Translations under genes and position numbers: made by a program | Part shown: positions 45,028 through 54,843 of the stretch, one piece after another | Numbering within the stretch: position 1 is the stretch's first letter | Layout: the number at the start of each line of letters is the position of its first letter | Origin: Fodinibius salicampi | GTDB taxonomy: Bacteria > Bacteroidota > Rhodothermia > Balneolales > Balneolaceae | Direction: 5' to 3' | Length of the DNA: 64,000 nt | NCBI RefSeq assembly: GCF_039545095.1 | Contig: NZ_BAABRS010000001.1 | Coordinates: 1,736,001-1,800,000 of the forward strand | The notes under the pieces: model-generated | What the model saw: the letters and a program-made list of their open reading frames with translations, nothing else | The model's database searches: none | What the model was told of the DNA's origin: nothing

Positions 45028-46233
45028 TTATCCGGGAAGTGATATTTTACCAAAATTGATTTTACCTTTACTTTTTGTGTGATCTATGGCTGATATTGGG
45101 AACCCTTCTCCAGCCAGCAACTCATTAGCCAATACCGCAAAACAGACGGCTTCCTTGGCATCAGCATTAAAAAAATATTCTTCGAATGATTTAAAAGCCG
45201 TATTGCCTAACTCATTCTGGAGACTTTCCATGAGGAACGTATTATGCACTCCTCCTCCACTCACTAGTACTTCCAGAGTTTTCGATTCCGGATGAATCTT
45301 TTTAACGGCATCTGTGATCGTCTGGATGGTAAACTGTGTTAGGGTAGCCAATAAGTCGGGAGCAGATAAATCTTCTGCATTGGAAACCATTCTTGCCCGT
45401 TTTGCATAGGACCAATTAAAATGTTCCAATCCCGTTGTCTTGGGTGGATCTAATTCGAAATATGGATCGTCTTTCAAGGCTTCAAGCAGATCTTGGTTTA
45501 TCTCCCCCTTACGCGCCGTTCTCCCTCCTTTGTCAAATGGCTGGTCAAGCATTCGTTGCGAAGCGGCATCCAGCAGCGTATTGCCTGGACCGGAATCCGC
45601 AGTTGTAAATGATCTTGATGACCCAGCAGCCGGGAGGTAACTGAAATTCGCAATACCTCCGATATTTAGCAGTAATCGATTTTTATCCGGATCATCAAAT
45701 AGCATCCGATCAATTAAGGATGCCATCGGGGCTCCTTCCCCTCCTGCAGCCGTATGTTTTTGTCGAAAATCGCTGATTGTAATAATTCTTGTCTGTCGGG
45801 CTATATGATCTCCATCTCCCATCTGCAGGGTTGCATTTGGCAATCCACTTCGCTTATGCCTGGATTTTGGAGCATGATAAATCGTCTGTCCGTGGCTGGC
45901 AATACAATCAATAGATGAAGGTTCCACTTCCCATTTATCCAATGCTTCCAAAATCAGGTCGGCAGTAAACTCTCCTAAATAGGTATTAAAAATACACAAC
46001 TCTTCCAGACTGCATTTCGGCACCGAAACAACTTCTTTCAGGATCTGTTGGATCTCATCCGGATAGGATAAAGTCGTAAATTCCTCCAGCATTATTTCCG
46101 TTTGTGTTCCGCTGCCACTCATCTTACAAAGGGCCAGATCCAGCCCATCCATCGAAGTCCCCGACATAAGTCCAATAATCATTCGTTCTTCCTTGGCTGA
46201 AATATGCGCGAGGTGTTGGATAGCATTGTTCAT
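45028..46233 (-). CDS. anmK: anhydro-N-acetylmuramic acid kinase
   Basis: 401-residue kinase phosphorylating and opening 1,6-anhydro-MurNAc in cell-wall recycling. The signature Ile-Gly-Leu-Met-Ser-Gly-Thr-Ser-Met-Asp-Gly-Leu-Asp follows a 17-residue extension; an ATG at 46182 would give a start nearer the usual length of about 370. Other segments are Ser-His-Gly-Gln-Thr-Ile-Tyr-His-Ala-Pro, Asn-Ile-Gly-Gly-Ile-Ala-Asn, Thr-Ala-Asp-Ser-Gly-Pro-Gly-Asn and Val-Ser-Gly-Gly-Gly-Val-His-Asn. It would work with murein amidase activity such as the gene at 59604-60980, though the two are not linked. Confidence 0.94.
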   Translation of the reverse strand: MNNAIQHLAHISAKEERMIIGLMSGTSMDGLDLALCKMSGSGTQTEIMLEEFTTLSYPDEIQQILKEVVSVPKCSLEELCIFNTYLGEFTADLILEALDKWEVEPSSIDCIASHGQTIYHAPKSRHKRSGLPNATLQMGDGDHIARQTRIITISDFRQKHTAAGGEGAPMASLIDRMLFDDPDKNRLLLNIGGIANFSYLPAAGSSRSFTTADSGPGNTLLDAASQRMLDQPFDKGGRTARKGEINQDLLEALKDDPYFELDPPKTTGLEHFNWSYAKRARMVSNAEDLSAPDLLATLTQFTIQTITDAVKKIHPESKTLEVLVSGGGVHNTFLMESLQNELGNTAFKSFEEYFFNADAKEAVCFAVLANELLAGEGFPISAIDHTKSKGKINFGKISLPG

Positions 46234-46329: not shown

Positions 46330-46581
46330 ATGTCTGACCTAACTGATACCGATTACGATGCATACGAGCAGGATATAGAACTGCTCGTAGATACTCTTCG
46401 AAAATGTTTTAATGCCGAAAAGGCCCGTTATAATGTAGTGGGGCATCAAAATACGCTCTTTATTGAAATTCAGGGACTCGATGATTTAACCCCTGAAGAA
46501 ATATCCGAAGTAGCAGAACCGGTTCTCGACGAACTTGATATGGATTTTGATGAAATTTCACTACTCCCTCTCAAAAAATAG
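46330..46581 (+). CDS. small acidic protein of unknown function
   Basis: 83 residues, acidic, with two predicted helices around a beta hairpin (Asn-Val-Val-Gly-His-Gln-Asn-Thr-Leu-Phe-Ile-Glu-Ile). It has no signal peptide or Cys pair. It lies divergent from anmK and 84 bp before the threonine-synthase-like gene. I recognise no family; codon use and length are consistent with a real gene. Confidence 0.65.
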   Translation: MSDLTDTDYDAYEQDIELLVDTLRKCFNAEKARYNVVGHQNTLFIEIQGLDDLTPEEISEVAEPVLDELDMDFDEISLLPLKK

Positions 46582-46665: not shown

Positions 46666-48360
46666 ATGCCTAATGCTACCACTGACTACCAGCTAAAGTG
46701 TGTCGCAAACGGCCATTTAAACTCTGAAGAGAAGACGACTACCTATTGCTCTGAATGCGATAGCGTACTGAGAGTGGTGTACAATAGCCCATCCGGGGAT
46801 CTGAAATATCCACTACAACAGCTTGTTCCCGACCCGTTAAAAACACATCCAACGGCCCTAAAAAAACTTGATAGACTTTCAGATACATACAATGCAGATT
46901 TAAGTGCAAAACTGGAGTTTCAGCATCCTACCGGCTGTTTTAAGGACCGCGGCAGTTATATTGAAGTTCAAAAAGCACTGGAACTAAATGCGGATGCCAT
47001 CTGCCTGGCCTCGACCGGCAATATGGCGGCTTCAGTGGCGGCCTATGCCTGTTACTTTAATATTCCGTGTTTTGTGTTTGTACCCGAAAAAACAACAGAA
47101 GCCAAGCTCGCACAGGCTACCATCTTTGACGCAAATATAATTCGCATCAAAGGCTCGTTCAGTACCTGTGAGCAGCTATGCCGGCAATTTGCAAAGTCAG
47201 GGAACTACTATCTGGCCGGGGATTTCGTGTTTCGTGAGGAAGGCCAAAAATCTTTCTCCTACGAACTCTTTGAGCAAGGAGGTACCGACGTAGAATATAT
47301 TCTGATTCCTATCGGATGCGGGACGAATTTTAGCGCTATCTTCAAGGGATTCCAGGAGATGAAGGAAGGCGGACTTATTGACCAAATTCCAAAATTTGTA
47401 GCCATACAACCGGATCAAAGTTCTCCGGTGGTAGAGGGGATTTTCAAAAAAGAGAAAATCGTGAAAGATCAGGTACAGACGATGGCAAGTTCTGTGGCCG
47501 TTCCCGATCCCGTGGATTTCTATAAAGTATTGGAAGCCATTGATCAAACAGACGGGATGGCTGTTACTGTAACTGAAGATGAAATACTTGATGCCCTGAA
47601 GGAGCTGGCCGTTGTGGAAGGACATTTTGTGGAACCGGCTGGTGCTCTTCCGTTAGCCGCTTTGAAGAAACATAAAGATACTTTTAAAAATAAAAAATGT
47701 TTATTGGTAACGACTGGATCGGGTTTCAAAGATACCAAGGTCGTAACCAAACATTCCTTAACCTCTCCGGTTCTCTCTCCGGATCTTAACAAAGTTATCA
47801 AATACATCAATTCCGGTTTCATTGGAATGCAGAAGGAATCGTGGGGTAAATCACGCGATACCTTCATGGCCAATCTTAAAATGGATGAAGAACACGAGAA
47901 GCTGTACAACCAATATATGTCCAAAATAAATAAGAAGGGTAAAACACTCAGCAATAATGAAATTGAAGCGCTGCAATCTCTTATTTTTGATGAAGATGCT
48001 GATCTCGATTATCCGGTAGAGGTATTGGATTATAAACTGACAATGCGTAAACATGGATTAGTACATGCAGAGGTCAAGCTTGACCAACAAGGCCAAGAAA
48101 TAATCTCCGAGGCCAAAGGAGTCGGCCCCATAGATGCAATCCTATCAGCCATTCGTTCCCATACAGATAATGTGTTTCCTCTTGAAGTGGATAACCACGA
48201 AGTCGATATACTCAGTCCCGATACCGATTCGCTGGTAATGGTAACACTGACGCTATCCAACAGCGAACAGCAGTGGATATCTAAAGCGGCATCCCCTGAT
48301 ACCCTGGAAGCCGTAATTCAAGCATTTACCAAGGGACTTGCCATAGCAATGAAATCGTAG
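46666..48360 (+). CDS. threonine-synthase-like PLP enzyme with LeuA-type C-terminal regulatory domain
   Basis: 564 residues. The front (about 1-380) is a plant/archaeal-type threonine synthase: a zinc-ribbon-like start (Cys12, Cys28, Cys31 in Tyr-Cys-Ser-Glu-Cys), PLP Lys93 in His-Pro-Thr-Gly-Cys-Phe-Lys-Asp-Arg-Gly, the Ser-Thr-Gly-Asn segment, and Gly-Cys-Gly-Thr-Asn. A helical linker (about 385-450) leads to residues 451-564, which resemble the regulatory dimer domain of 2-isopropylmalate/citramalate synthases: Ala-Lys-Gly-Val-Gly-Pro-Ile-Asp-Ala (483-491) and a final helix Ala-Ser-Pro-Asp-Thr-Leu-Glu-Ala-Val. That domain normally binds leucine or isoleucine. Its stop lies 14 bp from the convergent thrC stop. 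It is probably a second, feedback-regulated threonine synthase (inference). Confidence 0.83.
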   Translation: MPNATTDYQLKCVANGHLNSEEKTTTYCSECDSVLRVVYNSPSGDLKYPLQQLVPDPLKTHPTALKKLDRLSDTYNADLSAKLEFQHPTGCFKDRGSYIEVQKALELNADAICLASTGNMAASVAAYACYFNIPCFVFVPEKTTEAKLAQATIFDANIIRIKGSFSTCEQLCRQFAKSGNYYLAGDFVFREEGQKSFSYELFEQGGTDVEYILIPIGCGTNFSAIFKGFQEMKEGGLIDQIPKFVAIQPDQSSPVVEGIFKKEKIVKDQVQTMASSVAVPDPVDFYKVLEAIDQTDGMAVTVTEDEILDALKELAVVEGHFVEPAGALPLAALKKHKDTFKNKKCLLVTTGSGFKDTKVVTKHSLTSPVLSPDLNKVIKYINSGFIGMQKESWGKSRDTFMANLKMDEEHEKLYNQYMSKINKKGKTLSNNEIEALQSLIFDEDADLDYPVEVLDYKLTMRKHGLVHAEVKLDQQGQEIISEAKGVGPIDAILSAIRSHTDNVFPLEVDNHEVDILSPDTDSLVMVTLTLSNSEQQWISKAASPDTLEAVIQAFTKGLAIAMKS

Positions 48361-48374
48361 ATCTGTTTTAGCTG

Positions 48375-49688
48375 TTAGGAATACTGTTCCCGCAAGAATG
48401 ATTTAAATTTTGGATAAGAAGCATACATCCGCACGCTTTTCTTCTCCTTTTCCATACTTTCTTTTAAGGCACCAGGAAGCGGTATTTCCGTGTCAATCAG
48501 GGGTTCTACAATATCGGAAAATTTAGCGGGATGTGCCGTTCCCAGGATGATAACCGGTTGATCACTCTCCTGCTCTTTCCTGTAACTGTTTGCCGCCAAA
48601 TATCCTACGGCAGTGTGAGGATCTAGAATGTAATCATACGATTGATAAACTTCTTCAATGACTGTCCGACAAGCGTCATCATTGAAAGAAGCGGCCCATA
48701 GATGCTGTCGAAGTTCAACTACATCGGGATAGAAGGATCTGATTCTTTCCAAATTACTGGGATTACCCACATCCATGGCACTGGAAATGGTTTTCTGGGA
48801 GGCACGGGGACTAAAGTTCCCGCTTTCCAAAAATTCTGGTACCACATCATTGACGTTGGTCCCGGCAATAAACTGTCCGACGGACATGCCCGTTTGCGCC
48901 GCCATCATTCCGGCCGTAAGGTTTCCGAAGTTCCCGCTTGGCACACAAAAATGAACAGAATCTGATTCTTCCAGCTGTGCAAGCCCCCTTCCATAATAGA
49001 ACATCTGTGGCAGCAACCGGGCAATATTGATTGAATTTGCCGAACTCAAAATAAGCTCATCTCGTAATTTTGAATCTGAAAAAGCATCTTTCACTAATTT
49101 CTGGCAGTCATCAAAAGTCCCCTCTACTTCAAGGGCTGTTACATTCCCACCGATCGTAGTCAGCTGCTGCTCCTGCAAAGGACTTACTTTTCCGCTGGGA
49201 TATAGTAAACAGACATCGACATTATCAACTCCTTCAAAAGCACGTCCAACGGCACTCCCGGTATCCCCGGAAGTGGCCACTAAAATGACCATTCGCTGGG
49301 ACGCCTGCTCTGCCCTGTAGCTCATCATTCGGGCCATAAATCGGGCTCCATAATCTTTGAAAGCAAGGGTTGGTCCGTGAAAAAGCTCCAGCACATAGAG
49401 ATCATCGTGCAAATGTACCAGGGGCGCATCAAAAGAAATAGCATCCTCTACCAACGATTCCAGTCGATCGGCAGGAATTTCCGGAACAAAGGTCTGTGCA
49501 AGGGCAGAACCTATGTCGGTTATTGACATACTCTCAATATGATTCCACAATTTATCTGAAAGATCTGGCCACCGATCGGGAATAAAAAGGCCACCATCCC
49601 GGGCCAATCCCTGTTCCATTGCCCCACTGAAATTCTTAGACTCATTCCCATTTCGAGTACTGATATAGCTAATCTCATTCTTTGACAT
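48375..49688 (-). CDS. thrC: threonine synthase
   Basis: 437 residues from the ATG at 49686-49688 (Met-Ser-Lys-Asn-Glu), which overlaps the end of thrB by 14 bp; the frame continues 63 bp upstream but within thrB. Converts O-phosphohomoserine to threonine with PLP. Features of the bacterial/yeast-type enzyme: N-terminal Tyr-Ile-Ser-Thr-Arg, His-Gly-Pro-Thr-Leu-Ala-Phe-Lys-Asp-Tyr-Gly with the PLP Lys, Ala-Thr-Ser-Gly-Asp-Thr-Gly-Ser-Ala, Val-Pro-Ser-Gly-Asn-Phe-Gly-Asn, and Gly-Thr-Ala-His-Pro-Ala-Lys-Phe. Last gene of the dap-thr operon. It differs strongly from the plus-strand threonine-synthase-like gene next to it. Confidence 0.94.
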   Translation of the reverse strand: MSKNEISYISTRNGNESKNFSGAMEQGLARDGGLFIPDRWPDLSDKLWNHIESMSITDIGSALAQTFVPEIPADRLESLVEDAISFDAPLVHLHDDLYVLELFHGPTLAFKDYGARFMARMMSYRAEQASQRMVILVATSGDTGSAVGRAFEGVDNVDVCLLYPSGKVSPLQEQQLTTIGGNVTALEVEGTFDDCQKLVKDAFSDSKLRDELILSSANSINIARLLPQMFYYGRGLAQLEESDSVHFCVPSGNFGNLTAGMMAAQTGMSVGQFIAGTNVNDVVPEFLESGNFSPRASQKTISSAMDVGNPSNLERIRSFYPDVVELRQHLWAASFNDDACRTVIEEVYQSYDYILDPHTAVGYLAANSYRKEQESDQPVIILGTAHPAKFSDIVEPLIDTEIPLPGALKESMEKEKKSVRMYASYPKFKSFLREQYS

Positions 49689-50631
49689 CAATAACCTCTG
49701 CGCCTTTAGTATTAATAGCCGAAAGATACTCATCGGAAGGAAGCCCAACATTATCCAATGCCGACTTCATCGCCTTCAAAACGGCTTCGGCTGTATCTCT
49801 GTCCGCCGTCAATGCAAATATAGAAGGTCCTGATCCGGCGATACCCGCTCCGACAGCGCCTGCATTGAGGGCCGCTTCCTTTACGGAATCATAGCCCGGA
49901 ATCAGCACCGATCGCACCGGCTCAATAATGACATCCTTCATTGAACGGGAAATCAAATCCAAATCTTTGTTCATAAATCCTGCGACCAGTCCCCCAACGT
50001 TTCCCCATTGGATGACAGCCTGCTCCAGTGAGATATCTTTTCTTAAAATCTTGCGGGTATCTTCGGTCTTAATCTCAATTTGAGGATGTACTACAGCAGC
50101 ATGGAGTTTTTCAGGAAAAGGAAGATTAAAAATATCCGCGGGATCAGAACTCCGGATAAAAACGAACCCTCCCAATAAAGAGGGACCAACATTATCATAG
50201 TGGGCCGTACCACATGCTACGCGCTCCCCTTCAGCTGCAAATGGGAGCAGCTCGTTTCGACTTAAGGGACTGCCTAACATATGATTTGCTGCTAAAACAG
50301 CGCCGGCCGAACTGGCAGCACTCGATCCCAATCCACTTCCCAAGGGCATTTGCTTATGCACTTCAATTTCAATTCCGGCATCAATATTCAAATGATCCAG
50401 CAGAGCCCGGACTGCAACGCTTGCAGTATTCTTCTCAGCTTTGGCAGGCAATACGCCTTCATCACCGGTAATGGCTGCAATAGTTACATCCTTAGAGTCA
50501 GTAGAACGTACCACAATCTCATCTCCAGGAGCACCCAAGGCAAAGCCCATTACATCAAATCCACAGCTAACATTTGCAACAGAGGCAGGAGCAAATACTC
50601 GAACTTCACTATACTTAAAAGAAGAGTCCAT
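49675..50631 (-). CDS. thrB: homoserine kinase
   Basis: 318-residue GHMP kinase phosphorylating homoserine. The P-loop is Met-Pro-Leu-Gly-Ser-Gly-Leu-Gly-Ser-Ser-Ala-Ala-Ser, preceded by the Pro-Ala-Ser-Val-Ala-Asn-Val-Ser-Cys-Gly-Phe-Asp segment and followed by C-terminal Gly-Ser-Gly-Pro-Ser-Ile-Phe-Ala-Leu. It starts 2 bp after the thrA stop and overlaps thrC, showing tight translational coupling. Confidence 0.95.
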   Translation of the reverse strand: MDSSFKYSEVRVFAPASVANVSCGFDVMGFALGAPGDEIVVRSTDSKDVTIAAITGDEGVLPAKAEKNTASVAVRALLDHLNIDAGIEIEVHKQMPLGSGLGSSAASSAGAVLAANHMLGSPLSRNELLPFAAEGERVACGTAHYDNVGPSLLGGFVFIRSSDPADIFNLPFPEKLHAAVVHPQIEIKTEDTRKILRKDISLEQAVIQWGNVGGLVAGFMNKDLDLISRSMKDVIIEPVRSVLIPGYDSVKEAALNAGAVGAGIAGSGPSIFALTADRDTAEAVLKAMKSALDNVGLPSDEYLSAINTKGAEVIDVKE

Positions 50632-50633
50632 AA

Positions 50634-53105
50634 CTATACAACCTCGTTGCTAAATGCAGGAACATTACTGATCCTTAAAATATCAGCTAATATACCTCCT
50701 GCGGTAACCTCAGCTCCTGCCCCCGGCCCTTTGACGACTAGCGGAGTATCCCGGTAATGTTGTGTATGAAATGCTATAATATTATCACTTCCGGATAATC
50801 CACTGAACGGATGCTCATCATCAATTTCTTCCAGACTCACGGTTGCTTCGCCATCTTCATAACTCGCGATATAGCATAGGCGATGACCATTTGAAGCAGC
50901 TTTATCGTATCGCTTTTTAAATTCGTCATCAAAATCAGATAACTTTTCAAAAAAATCTTCAACGCTATCCGCTTCGCGGGCCGATTCCGGTACTAAGTTT
51001 TCAACCGTCAGGTCGCTCATTTCGACTTCTATGCCAGCTTCACGACACAAAATAAGCAGTTTCCGTGCCACATCCCTTCCATTGAGGTCTTCTCGGGGAT
51101 CAGGTTCAGTGAATCCTTTTTCCAGAGCAGTCCGCACTACTTCACTAAAGGGAGTCTCGCCATCATACGTATTAAATATATAGCTAAGGGTTCCTGAGAG
51201 TACTCCCTCAATTTTAGTAATTTTATCGCCTGCAAGCACCTGTTCCTTAAGAGTTTTAACGACCGGCAGACCGGCCCCAACATTGGTTTCGTACAGGTAC
51301 ATTACATTGTGTTTCAAGGCCAACTCCTGCAGGGCCTGGTAGTGATGCAATGTCCCCGAATTGGCTTTCTTATTAGCCGTAACCACCGAAAAATTAGCCC
51401 TCATTACCTCCGGATAAAAATCGGCTACCTCACTGCTTGCCGTGCAGTCAATAAACAGACTATTTGGCAAGTTTAGCTCTCCGGCCTCATCCAAAAAGGT
51501 TTGTAGATCCATTGGCTTCCCGTCTTCCTCTAATCGCTCCGGCCAGCCAGTAAAAGGCATGCCTTTTTGCTCAATTTTGTAATAGCGGGAATTAGCTATC
51601 CCACATAAATTAAAGGCAATGTTATGTTCTTTGAATAGTAATTCCGCTTGTTTCTCAAACAGTTCGAGCACTTTATTCCCAATCAGTCCCACTCCAACCA
51701 AAAAGAGATTCACAGATTTAATCTTACTAAGGAAAAAGGCGTCGTGAATGGTGTTAAGCGTTTTAGACAAATCCTTCTTCTTAACTACCACCGAAATGTT
51801 CCGCTCGGAAGATCCCTGTGCAATAGCCCGAACATTAATACCGTTTCTCCCCAATGCTCTGAATAACCGTCCTGAAATACCAGGTGTATGCTTCATTCCT
51901 TCTCCTACTGCAGCAACAATGGAACAGTTGGATTCTTCTTTAATCTCATCAATCATACCTTCCTTCAGCTCAAAACTGAAGTTGGTCTTAAGTGACTGTA
52001 TAGCCTGAGGAGCCTGCCGGGGCATTACGGCAAAACATACGGTATGCTCTGATGATGCCTGAGTAATCATAATAATGTTTACTCCGGCATCAGCCAAAAC
52101 ACTAAAAATACGCGCCGCAAACCCACTCACGCCAATCATTCCACTCCCTTTTAATGTGATCAGCGTAACCTCATCAATAGATGATATGCCTTTCACATTT
52201 GTGCTGATATCTGCCGGCTCCCGGTTAATAACCGTACCCGGCGATTCCGGCTTAAAAGTATTCTTAATATAGATTGGTATAGACGCAGACATAGCCGGAT
52301 AGACCGTGGGAGGATAGATAACCTCGGCCCCAAAGTGAGAAAGTTCCATGGCTTCCTCGTAAGAAAGTTTCTGTATAGGTAAATGACGTTCCACCTTACG
52401 GGGGTCTGCCGTCATAATCCCCTCAACATCGGTCCATATCTCAATAGCATCTGCATCCAGAGCAGCACCAATTAATGAAGCGGTATAGTCCGACCCACCC
52501 CGACCAAGTGTTGTAGTTTCGCCTGTTTCCGTTGATGCGATAAAGCCGGTAACCACACCTACGGTATCACGGTTCTCGAAATACTCCCGGATATTTTGGG
52601 TCGTCTCGGTAGTAAGCACCCGGGCATTCCCAAAGTCCGCATTGGTCTTAATAATAGATCTTGCATCTACATATTCGGCATCTATGCCCTGCTCCTGCAA
52701 CGCAGCGCTGAGTACAAATGCTGAAAGACGTTCTCCAAACCCCAAAACAAAATCGTGGGTCCGTCCCGTAAGCTCGTGAGTTAGTGAAACCCCGTGGAGC
52801 ACATCTTCCAGCTCATTAAATAACACTTTGAGTTCTGTAAGAACGCTGCTTTGCCCCTGAACCCCAATAAGAGTTCGAACCATATCTACATGGCGTTGCT
52901 CTACCTTTTTTAACTGTTTGCGGTATTCATCCCTTCCTGCGGAAGCGTCTGAAACCATTTCTTCGAGGGTATTCGTCACCCCTCCAAAAGCAGAAACAAC
53001 GACCTGGATACGATCTTCTTTCTGTTTCTCTGTAATTAATTTTAGGACTTGTCGAATGGCGGATTCTGATCCCACAGAAGTGCCGCCGAATTTTAAAATA
53101 CGCAT
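50634..53105 (-). CDS. thrA: bifunctional aspartate kinase / homoserine dehydrogenase
   Basis: 823 residues from the ATG at 53103-53105 (Met-Arg-Ile-Leu-Lys-Phe-Gly-Gly-Thr-Ser-Val-Gly); the frame extends 36 bp more but without the family start. The kinase occupies about 1-290, ACT-type regulatory repeats follow (about 300-455, including Gly-Val-Ser-Gly-Phe-Ala-Ala-Arg-Ile and Gly-Ile-Ser-Gly-Arg-Leu-Phe), and the dehydrogenase starts near 463 with Leu-Phe-Leu-Val-Gly-Val-Gly-Leu-Ile-Gly. A later Glu-Thr-Asn-Val-Gly-Ala-Gly-Leu-Pro segment is the active-site region. ThrA-type enzymes are inhibited by threonine. It supplies aspartate semialdehyde and homoserine to both the lysine and the threonine branches encoded beside it. 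Confidence 0.94.
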   Translation of the reverse strand: MRILKFGGTSVGSESAIRQVLKLITEKQKEDRIQVVVSAFGGVTNTLEEMVSDASAGRDEYRKQLKKVEQRHVDMVRTLIGVQGQSSVLTELKVLFNELEDVLHGVSLTHELTGRTHDFVLGFGERLSAFVLSAALQEQGIDAEYVDARSIIKTNADFGNARVLTTETTQNIREYFENRDTVGVVTGFIASTETGETTTLGRGGSDYTASLIGAALDADAIEIWTDVEGIMTADPRKVERHLPIQKLSYEEAMELSHFGAEVIYPPTVYPAMSASIPIYIKNTFKPESPGTVINREPADISTNVKGISSIDEVTLITLKGSGMIGVSGFAARIFSVLADAGVNIIMITQASSEHTVCFAVMPRQAPQAIQSLKTNFSFELKEGMIDEIKEESNCSIVAAVGEGMKHTPGISGRLFRALGRNGINVRAIAQGSSERNISVVVKKKDLSKTLNTIHDAFFLSKIKSVNLFLVGVGLIGNKVLELFEKQAELLFKEHNIAFNLCGIANSRYYKIEQKGMPFTGWPERLEEDGKPMDLQTFLDEAGELNLPNSLFIDCTASSEVADFYPEVMRANFSVVTANKKANSGTLHHYQALQELALKHNVMYLYETNVGAGLPVVKTLKEQVLAGDKITKIEGVLSGTLSYIFNTYDGETPFSEVVRTALEKGFTEPDPREDLNGRDVARKLLILCREAGIEVEMSDLTVENLVPESAREADSVEDFFEKLSDFDDEFKKRYDKAASNGHRLCYIASYEDGEATVSLEEIDDEHPFSGLSGSDNIIAFHTQHYRDTPLVVKGPGAGAEVTAGGILADILRISNVPAFSNEVV

Positions 53106-53167
53106 TTCAAATACTGTTTTTGGGATTTCGTCCCATACCATCTAAAAGTAAAAAGTAGTAGACGTAA

Positions 53168-53923
53168 TTATCGTAATGCATCTTCGAGTTCAAGTGAAGC
53201 ATCGCTCTGTGCATCCCGATACTTTACAATTAATGGACATGACATATTAAGACCTTGTTCTTCTGCCCACGAACCTGACATTGGACGCGTACCAGGGATT
53301 ACAACTGCCCGTTCGGGAATGGCCGCCCCTTTTTCCAGCACTTTCTCATTCACACAATCATAAACCGGAATAGATTTGGAAAGAGTCACGCCCGGTGCAA
53401 TCACGGCTCCCTCTTTAACCAAAATGCCTTCCACAATAACCGATCCTGCTCCTATAAAACAATCATCTTCAATAACAACAGGCGATAGTCCTACCGGCTC
53501 AAGAACCCCGCCAAGCTGAACTCCAGCAGACAGATGCACATTTTTCCCTACTTGAGCACAGGATCCAACCAAGGCATGGCTATCAACCATGGCTCCTTCA
53601 TCTACATAAGCACCCACATTCACATAAGCAGGCGGCATGATTATAACTCCTGATGCTACATAAGCACCCCGGCGTACAGAAGAGCCTCCGGGTACCAAAC
53701 GCACATTTTCATCCGCTGAAAATCGTCGCGGCGGAAGATTATGTTTATCTACAAAACCATCATAAATACCGGAATATTCGGTATTTTCTCCCGCGCTAAA
53801 AGATTCTAAAATAGCTTCTTTGACTTCAATATTTGCTTCCCAGCCATCCCCTTTGGGTTCGGCAGCCCGCACTTCACCGTTTTCCAGTTGTTCTAAAATT
53901 TCTTCCCAGTGTTCTTTACTCAT
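53168..53923 (-). CDS. dapD: 2,3,4,5-tetrahydropyridine-2,6-dicarboxylate N-succinyltransferase
   Basis: 251-residue left-handed beta-helix acyltransferase in the succinylase route to lysine and diaminopimelate. The middle is a clear hexapeptide-repeat series (Gly-Ala-Tyr-Val-Ala-Ser, Gly-Ala-Tyr-Val-Asp-Glu, Val-Gly-Lys-Asn-Val-His, and others). An N-terminal helical domain precedes it and the C-terminal part has Val-Val-Ile-Pro-Gly-Thr-Arg-Pro. The acetyl-transferring form has a different start, so succinyl transfer is favoured. Between dapA and thrA on the same strand. Confidence 0.92.
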   Translation of the reverse strand: MSKEHWEEILEQLENGEVRAAEPKGDGWEANIEVKEAILESFSAGENTEYSGIYDGFVDKHNLPPRRFSADENVRLVPGGSSVRRGAYVASGVIIMPPAYVNVGAYVDEGAMVDSHALVGSCAQVGKNVHLSAGVQLGGVLEPVGLSPVVIEDDCFIGAGSVIVEGILVKEGAVIAPGVTLSKSIPVYDCVNEKVLEKGAAIPERAVVIPGTRPMSGSWAEEQGLNMSCPLIVKYRDAQSDASLELEDALR

Positions 53924-53949
53924 TTTTATAACTGTCTATTTTTAAAAGC

Positions 53950-54843
53950 TTATTTATTTAAAATATTTTCGTTATACCAGTTTTCAATCAAATTATCTGC
54001 ATTTTTTAATAGGCTCAGATCTTCAACCTCATCACCAGTCAGCGGTGGACGCAGGGTTGCTGCAGATATCCAGCCCTTTTCCTTTAGCAAGACTTTAGCC
54101 GGAATAGGGTTCGGAGATGAAAAAAGCACATCCGAACACTCCTGCCACAAAGGCAAAAGCTCGGGACCCCTGCCATCCAAGCACCATTCGACGTAGCGAT
54201 GTGTAGCCTGGGGCCATACATTGGAGACCACCGAAACCAACCCCTCACATCCAGCCATTGCAAAGAAAGGCAACATACCGTCATCCCCGCTAAAAAATGC
54301 AATATCCTTGGCGCTTTTGCGGTAATTCTGATAATCTTCAACACTCCCGCTGGCTTCTTTCACAGCCACAAAGTTTGGATGGTCGGCTAATTCTTTAAGT
54401 ACCAGCGGTTCCATTTTTACCCCCGTTCGGGAGGGCACATTATAGAGCATGCATGGTTTATCGGAAGCTTCTAATAGCGTTTTAAACCACTCTACCTGTC
54501 CTTTTGGCCCAGGTTTGGCATAAAGTGGCGTAACAAGCAGAAAAGCATCCACATCGTATTGCTGGCAAAATTCAATCCATTCAACTTGCTTCTGGTGATT
54601 GAATCCCCCCACCCCAACCATAATTGGTGTTTCCGTATCTAATTCGGAGACAGCCTGAACCACCTGCTTTTTATCTTCAAGTCCCATCGCCAAGCCTTCA
54701 CCAGTACTTCCTAAAACCAGCACACCATTCCCGGCTTCCTCCTGTTTACGAACCAAGGATCTGAGATCATCAAGATGCAAATCTCCGTTTTCCTGCAGGG
54801 GCGTTACTAACGCTGTCCAAAGTTTTGTGTCAATTATACTCAT
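53950..54843 (-). CDS. dapA: 4-hydroxy-tetrahydrodipicolinate synthase
   Basis: 297-residue aldolase-fold enzyme condensing aspartate semialdehyde and pyruvate. Schiff-base Lys is in Val-Ala-Val-Lys-Glu-Ala-Ser-Gly, and the Tyr in Met-Leu-Tyr-Asn-Val-Pro-Ser-Arg-Thr-Gly is the proton relay. The Gly-Ser-Thr-Gly-Glu segment near residue 45 is typical. 26 bp upstream of dapD and 8 bp after dapB. Confidence 0.95.
   Translation of the reverse strand: MSIIDTKLWTALVTPLQENGDLHLDDLRSLVRKQEEAGNGVLVLGSTGEGLAMGLEDKKQVVQAVSELDTETPIMVGVGGFNHQKQVEWIEFCQQYDVDAFLLVTPLYAKPGPKGQVEWFKTLLEASDKPCMLYNVPSRTGVKMEPLVLKELADHPNFVAVKEASGSVEDYQNYRKSAKDIAFFSGDDGMLPFFAMAGCEGLVSVVSNVWPQATHRYVEWCLDGRGPELLPLWQECSDVLFSSPNPIPAKVLLKEKGWISAATLRPPLTGDEVEDLSLLKNADNLIENWYNENILNK

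Follow-up and report, generated by a model that had tools for sequence, protein, structure and literature searches.

What does a protein that resembles threonine synthase do when its C-terminus is the regulatory domain of 2-isopropylmalate synthase (LeuA)? The question is posed by a gene of Fodinibius salicampi, at positions 46666..48360 (+) of the 64 000 nt stretch of DNA that we analysed (the window, to which all coordinates refer unless another locus is named). The original prediction for this gene was a threonine synthase that senses a branched-chain amino acid and thereby links the supply of threonine to that of isoleucine. We have followed up this prediction with domain profiles, structure models, trees and a survey of related genomes, and we discuss here what the fused gene is, how widely it is conserved, and which reaction and which form of control are consistent with the evidence.

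Architecture of the fused gene

The open reading frame is intact and encodes 564 aa, in which domain profiles and orthologues delimit a class II threonine-synthase-like PLP enzyme, a LeuA linker and a LeuA_dimer regulatory domain. The catalytic PALP domain (PF00291; E 3.9e-62, 210.7 bits) covers residues 61-351 (46846..47718 (+)), and the PLP lysine, K93, lies within the motif PTGCFKDRG and is invariant in all 46 fusions aligned. A Pfam search placed the LeuA_dimer domain (PF08502) at residues 434-558 (47965..48339 (+)) with E 2.4e-17 and 63.5 bits against a gathering cut-off of 24.9, and the C-terminal 124 aa by themselves retrieved the same family (E 1.6e-17). The predicted union of a threonine-synthase-like core, with its Lys93, and a LeuA/CimA-type regulatory domain in one protein is therefore confirmed, and the two motifs on which the prediction drew, the GVGPIDA turn (residues 485-491) and the closing Ala-Ser-x-Asp-x-Leu helix (ASPDTLEA, residues 542-549), are present and nearly invariant among the 46 fusions.

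The regulatory region had been set at residues 451-564. The domain is indeed found there, but homology begins earlier, LeuA profiles aligning to the fusion from about residue 407 onwards, so that the LeuA linker appears to have been captured along with the sensor. When the fused C-termini were compared with other families as profiles, they matched LeuA over 148 columns, linker included (98.3% probability, E 1.2e-14), and CimA over 108 columns without the linker (96.5%, E 9e-10). This linker, at residues about 405-441 (47878..47988 (+)), resembles subdomain II of LeuA in the LeuA profiles, in the profile comparison and in an AlphaFold2 model of the fusion (15 sequences, mean pLDDT 72), which has helices at residues 408-423 and 430-441 followed by two beta-beta-beta-alpha units at 451-500 and 507-563. 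With the modest confidence that such a model allows, this order of secondary-structure elements is that expected of a LeuA regulatory domain. At the other end of the protein, a Cys motif (46699..46758 (+)) may represent a partly degraded zinc ribbon and so may bind zinc; C12, C28 and C31 are invariant, and the fourth Cys (position 15) is found in 29/46 fusions and is replaced by Asn in the F. salicampi copy.

The putative effector site, as recognized by its sequence motifs, is kept across the fusions (GxGP in 46/46, D490 in 45/46 and D545 in 46/46). A C-terminal domain that had lost ligand binding and now served merely as a dimerisation module would account for V486 in the GxG loop, where LeuA and CimA carry N or D, and for retention of the fusion in genomes without leucine synthesis. 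However, near-invariance of the GxGPxDA and ASxD motifs and purifying selection, which is strong in this domain (dN/dS about 0.01-0.06 in the three unsaturated pairs), argue against such a loss, which we consider improbable.

Phylogenetic distribution

A search with the C-terminal part as query found the fusion in 48 of 92 Balneolaceae, with one copy per genome; Fodinibius roseus and F. salsisoli are the named relatives at 83-85% identity, and full-length profile matches extend to further Balneolales families (G103-G105, G108, G123 and G124). Since several families share the architecture in an uninterrupted reading frame, it is not the product of chance: the fusion of a PLP enzyme with a LeuA-type sensor is real and old, and it is vertically inherited in Balneolales. 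The two-part protein was not found outside Balneolales among 245 sampled genomes of the class and 394 of the phylum, and in the latter set the only matches outside Balneolales were PALP-only proteins (E about 1e-61). Likewise, the best plasmid and phage matches listed were PALP-only relatives, none of which covers 80% of the fusion.

In trees, 20 fusions are united by their PALP domains in one clade (support 100/100), which lies on a long stem (2.68) outside nine canonical synthases. The regulatory domains likewise form one clade (98/98), grouped with LeuA sequences and separate from the CimA of the host, in a tree where several rows are long-branched. As catalytic and sensor domains each form a single clade, one old fusion event is the simplest reading. 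The original prediction knew of no characterised example, and we found none in open-access papers either: searches of open-licence PMC papers for PF08502/LeuA_dimer and for Balneolaceae threonine synthase returned no papers, and we did not find the pairing of PALP with LeuA_dimer described in the open-access literature; domain databases may list it uncommented.

Genomic neighbourhood and a conserved small ORF

The ordinary thrC that was predicted to adjoin the fused gene convergently is indeed a class I thrC (48375..49751 (-); TIGR00260 288 bits, Thr_synth_N and THR4_C), the true start of which is probably the ATG at about 49688. Beyond it on the same strand lie a thrB-type homoserine kinase (49675..50631 (-)), which provided the query for the phyletic test described below, a thrA-type aspartokinase/homoserine dehydrogenase (50634..53141 (-)) and dapD- and dapA-like genes (53168..54843 (-)), while an anmK-like gene (45028..46233 (-)) lies on the other side of the fused gene and is divergent from it. 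The thrB, dapD, dapA and anmK names were assigned from sequence, that of thrB also from operon position. Elsewhere, a second aspartokinase/homoserine dehydrogenase fusion, besides the thrA of the window, is located next to metX/metY-like genes (L145:6209-8617 (-)). The fused gene is usually near anmK-like and dapA/dapD-like genes, which persist as its neighbours in many relatives, but as these genes are divergent or convergent with it, the arrangement constitutes synteny and not proof of a shared pathway.

Overlooked in the first reading of the window is a small acidic ORF of 83 aa (46330..46581 (+)), which lies 84 nt upstream of the fused gene and is its probable operon partner. A homologue occupies the same position at 25/26 loci from three families, L136 alone being without it, and in L097 and L098 it overlaps the start of the fused gene. 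Nine columns are invariant over 21 copies and dN/dS is about 0.05 (eight unsaturated pairs), and the small protein is probably co-expressed with the fused enzyme. It has no Pfam match over cut-off and no NCBIfam match, and its best match among PDB sequences is a designed repeat (E 0.0085) and is unusable. The predicted structure (alpha-beta-beta-alpha-beta, pLDDT 82) likewise gave no usable match, with a best Foldseek E of 0.007 and a best VIA Z of 8.0 across unrelated folds. Around the fused gene, no riboswitch or leader RNA scored above the gathering score, and promoter and terminator scans at this gene were uninformative.

The catalytic core and its substrate site

If the fusion were a true threonine synthase isozyme, acting on O-phosphohomoserine under allosteric control by a branched-chain amino acid, several features of its catalytic core and surroundings would be explained. 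It scores above the cut-off of the thrC profile TIGR00260, albeit narrowly (172.5 vs 167.1 bits), and its best structural and PDB matches are class II threonine synthases (PDB 6cgq, 2d1f and 1uim; about 28-32% identity). The PLP lysine in FKDRG and the STGN carboxylate loop are kept in 46/46 fusions, K147 and R190 of the substrate site are kept also, and in Fodinibius the fused gene lies beside thrABC. There is precedent, moreover, for a C-terminal sensor on threonine synthase in PRK05638, which we take to be a longer class II family with a C-terminal ACT domain; its profile (NF004170) is the best NCBIfam match of the catalytic part, at 188.8 bits against a cut-off of 421. Ammonia-lyase profiles score below the threonine-synthase profiles on the fusion, that of the threonine ammonia-lyase IlvA (TIGR01127) giving 102.3 against a cut-off of 378.75 bits.

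Against an isozyme stands the substrate site itself. Residues T88, N154, S155 and N188 (Thermus numbering), which we take to be substrate contacts in the Thermus complex 1v7c, are found in 9/9 canonical class II synthases, whereas M120, A184, G185 and C/A218 are found instead in 46/46 fusions. N154 and S155 are the N-S of the VNSVNPxR motif of canonical synthases; MAFFT shifts the A-G-D of the fusion against this N-S by one, and neither register keeps N or S.

Class II paralogues of other kinds were encountered in the course of these searches. Two threonine-synthase-like proteins of other Bacteroidota, encoded beside xanthine-dehydrogenase-like genes (L185:5037-6320 (-) and L186:4893-6119 (-)), have NRNSGTNP in place of VNSVNP and are probably not threonine synthases either, and haloarchaeal plasmid genes annotated thrC, situated beside peptidase or amidohydrolase genes (L177 and L180), group with them and likewise depart from the canonical substrate site. 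As such paralogues are also without some of the substrate-site residues, the synthase role may have been left more than once in the superfamily.

Retention of K147 and R190 means that an anionic group may still be bound, as would be expected of an enzyme acting on another activated substrate, for example O-phosphoserine (in the manner of cysteate synthase) or O-acetylhomoserine, with the effector domain gating the branch. CapA2 of Alistipes is also among the structural matches (Z 29.5, rmsd 3.8, 369 aligned). However, the cysteate synthase profile TIGR03844 gave only 44.5 against a cut-off of 324.9 bits, and a different gene of the genome is far better on the cysteate/cysteine synthase profile.

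Co-occurrence with threonine and branched-chain amino acid biosynthesis

In its phyletic pattern, the fusion appears independent of ThrB, ThrC and LeuA. We compiled a presence table by hand from search outputs for 57 genomes at least 95% complete, 39 of which have the fusion, and found no significant association with ThrB and ThrC (30 with and 9 without among genomes that have the fusion, vs 17 and 1 among the others; Fisher p 0.15) or with LeuA (p 0.19). In nine of the 39 genomes with the fusion, ThrB and class I ThrC were both undetected, and eight of these nine (G008, G012, G018, G019, G026, G030, G034 and G037) are also without LeuA, which G025 keeps; absences of this sort depend on assembly completeness. 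The alternative homoserine kinase TIGR02535 was absent in 89/89 genomes. Some homoserine kinases, as in Desulfovibrio (PMC5764234), are unrelated to ThrB and fall outside TIGR02535, and ThrB-less genomes with the fusion may use a different kinase of this sort, our search having covered ThrB homologues and TIGR02535.

Most of the ThrB-less genomes with the fusion retain homoserine dehydrogenase, which in G019, the one genome looked at, adjoins metX/metY-like genes, and this would suit a substrate such as O-acetylhomoserine. Nevertheless, the fusion is present in G089 and G090, reduced genomes (about 90% complete) that are without homoserine dehydrogenase, ThrB, ThrC and LeuA, which speaks against any homoserine-derived substrate. 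Taking this together with the profile scores, we hold use of another activated substrate to be quite improbable.

The LeuA of F. salicampi itself (L056:15884-17074 (-), G000:C2) has 396 aa and is without LeuA_dimer. Indeed, LeuA throughout Balneolaceae is about 380-400 aa long and is without the leucine-sensing domain, so that control of leucine synthesis may take another form. It is conceivable that the fusion supplies the missing domain in trans to this truncated LeuA, but among genomes at least 95% complete, eleven carry the fusion and no LeuA, while sixteen carry truncated LeuA and no fusion, and on this phyletic pattern we reject the idea as exceedingly improbable; presence of the fusion does not track leucine synthesis. 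Directly before LeuA, in the order ilvC-cimA-leuA-leuC-leuD-leuB-ilvE-like, F. salicampi encodes a CimA that does have the regulatory domain (L056:17213-18805 (-); TIGR00977 767 bits), and the sampled LeuA-bearing genera other than Fodinibius mostly have an IlvA-like enzyme of 420-460 aa with a C-terminal extension, or CimA (g11). Isoleucine precursor supply thus appears to be covered by CimA in Fodinibius or by the extended IlvA-like enzyme in other genera, and seems not to need the fusion. We also considered the fusion as a replacement for IlvA and rejected this as a general role, as it coexists with CimA, with an IlvA-like enzyme or with neither.

Given the replaced substrate-site residues, the persistence of the fusion in genomes without ThrB, ThrC and LeuA and the apparent cover of isoleucine precursor supply, the fusion probably does not serve as the threonine synthase of the pathway. 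The predicted threonine synthase that couples threonine to isoleucine supply is weakened accordingly, and we now regard an isozyme acting on O-phosphohomoserine as unlikely.

A working model

Fold-type II PLP enzymes that bear sensor domains are already known, and allostery in this fold type is well established. We favour, with a probability of roughly 0.4, a PLP enzyme under allosteric control that descends from threonine synthase, has left the synthase role and probably catalyses a threonine/serine-type elimination. Our current working model is that a fold-type II PLP enzyme of this descent acquired, in a single event, both linker and regulatory domain from an enzyme of the LeuA type, at the latest in the ancestor of the Balneolales copies. 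K93 would carry PLP, and two subunits would associate through their C-terminal domains, which would bind a small hydrophobic amino acid (of the Leu, Ile or Val class) at the GxGPxDA/ASxD site; as in LeuA and CimA, the linker would relay binding to the active site with its PLP. The most likely reaction would be a beta-elimination of the ammonia-lyase type, with threonine, serine or a closely related compound as substrate. This guess draws on two points, namely that the residues presumed to lie on the phosphate side have been lost and that deaminase activity has been reported for ThrC enzymes: threonine deamination is described as a side activity of canonical ThrC in Thermus and Bacillus, and also of a divergent ThrC in cyanobacteria (PMC12172450). 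Control of a threonine synthase by a small molecule is seen in plants, where the enzyme is SAM-activated (PMC9081730). The upstream small protein may be a subunit or modulator. We tentatively propose, then, a two-gene operon through much of Balneolales, in which a PLP lineage with a new, non-synthase activity has its flux set by a LeuA-type sensor and is accompanied by an 80-residue partner.

If this model is correct, the sensor of LeuA and CimA resembles ACT domains in being a portable module, transferable to a catalytic fold unrelated to its original partner. The model would also correct a likely misannotation, that of a 'threonine synthase' kept by bacteria seemingly unable to make its substrate, in which automated pathway prediction would wrongly call threonine synthesis. 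Control of the fused enzyme should be readily approachable through the conserved small ORF.

Comparison with known systems

The fusion shares with class II threonine synthase the fold-type II PLP core, the FKDRG lysine motif, the STGN loop and the K and R of the substrate site, but it differs in its additional linker and LeuA domain, in forming a separate clade, in occurring without ThrB and in the replacement of the T88, N154, S155 and N188 equivalents in every copy. PRK05638 has a C-terminal regulatory extension on the same core; the fusion, however, falls far below the cut-off of that family (NF004170) and carries LeuA_dimer where PRK05638 has ACT. IlvA with its ACT-like domain is analogous in layout, being a fold-type II PLP enzyme with a C-terminal amino-acid sensor, yet the sensor of the fusion belongs to a different family and its catalytic part reaches 102 bits against an IlvA cut-off of 379. 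The divergent cyanobacterial ThrC represents a second non-canonical ThrC lineage, reported to be bifunctional with threonine deaminase activity, and, when compared by description, differs from the fusion in that no LeuA domain is reported for it (PMC12172450). Finally, the regulatory domain of LeuA and CimA (PF08502) has the same linker helices, the same two beta-beta-beta-alpha units and the same GxGPxDA and ASxD motifs, but in the fusion this sensor forms a clade of its own and is borne by a PLP enzyme and not by a condensing enzyme of the TIM-barrel fold.
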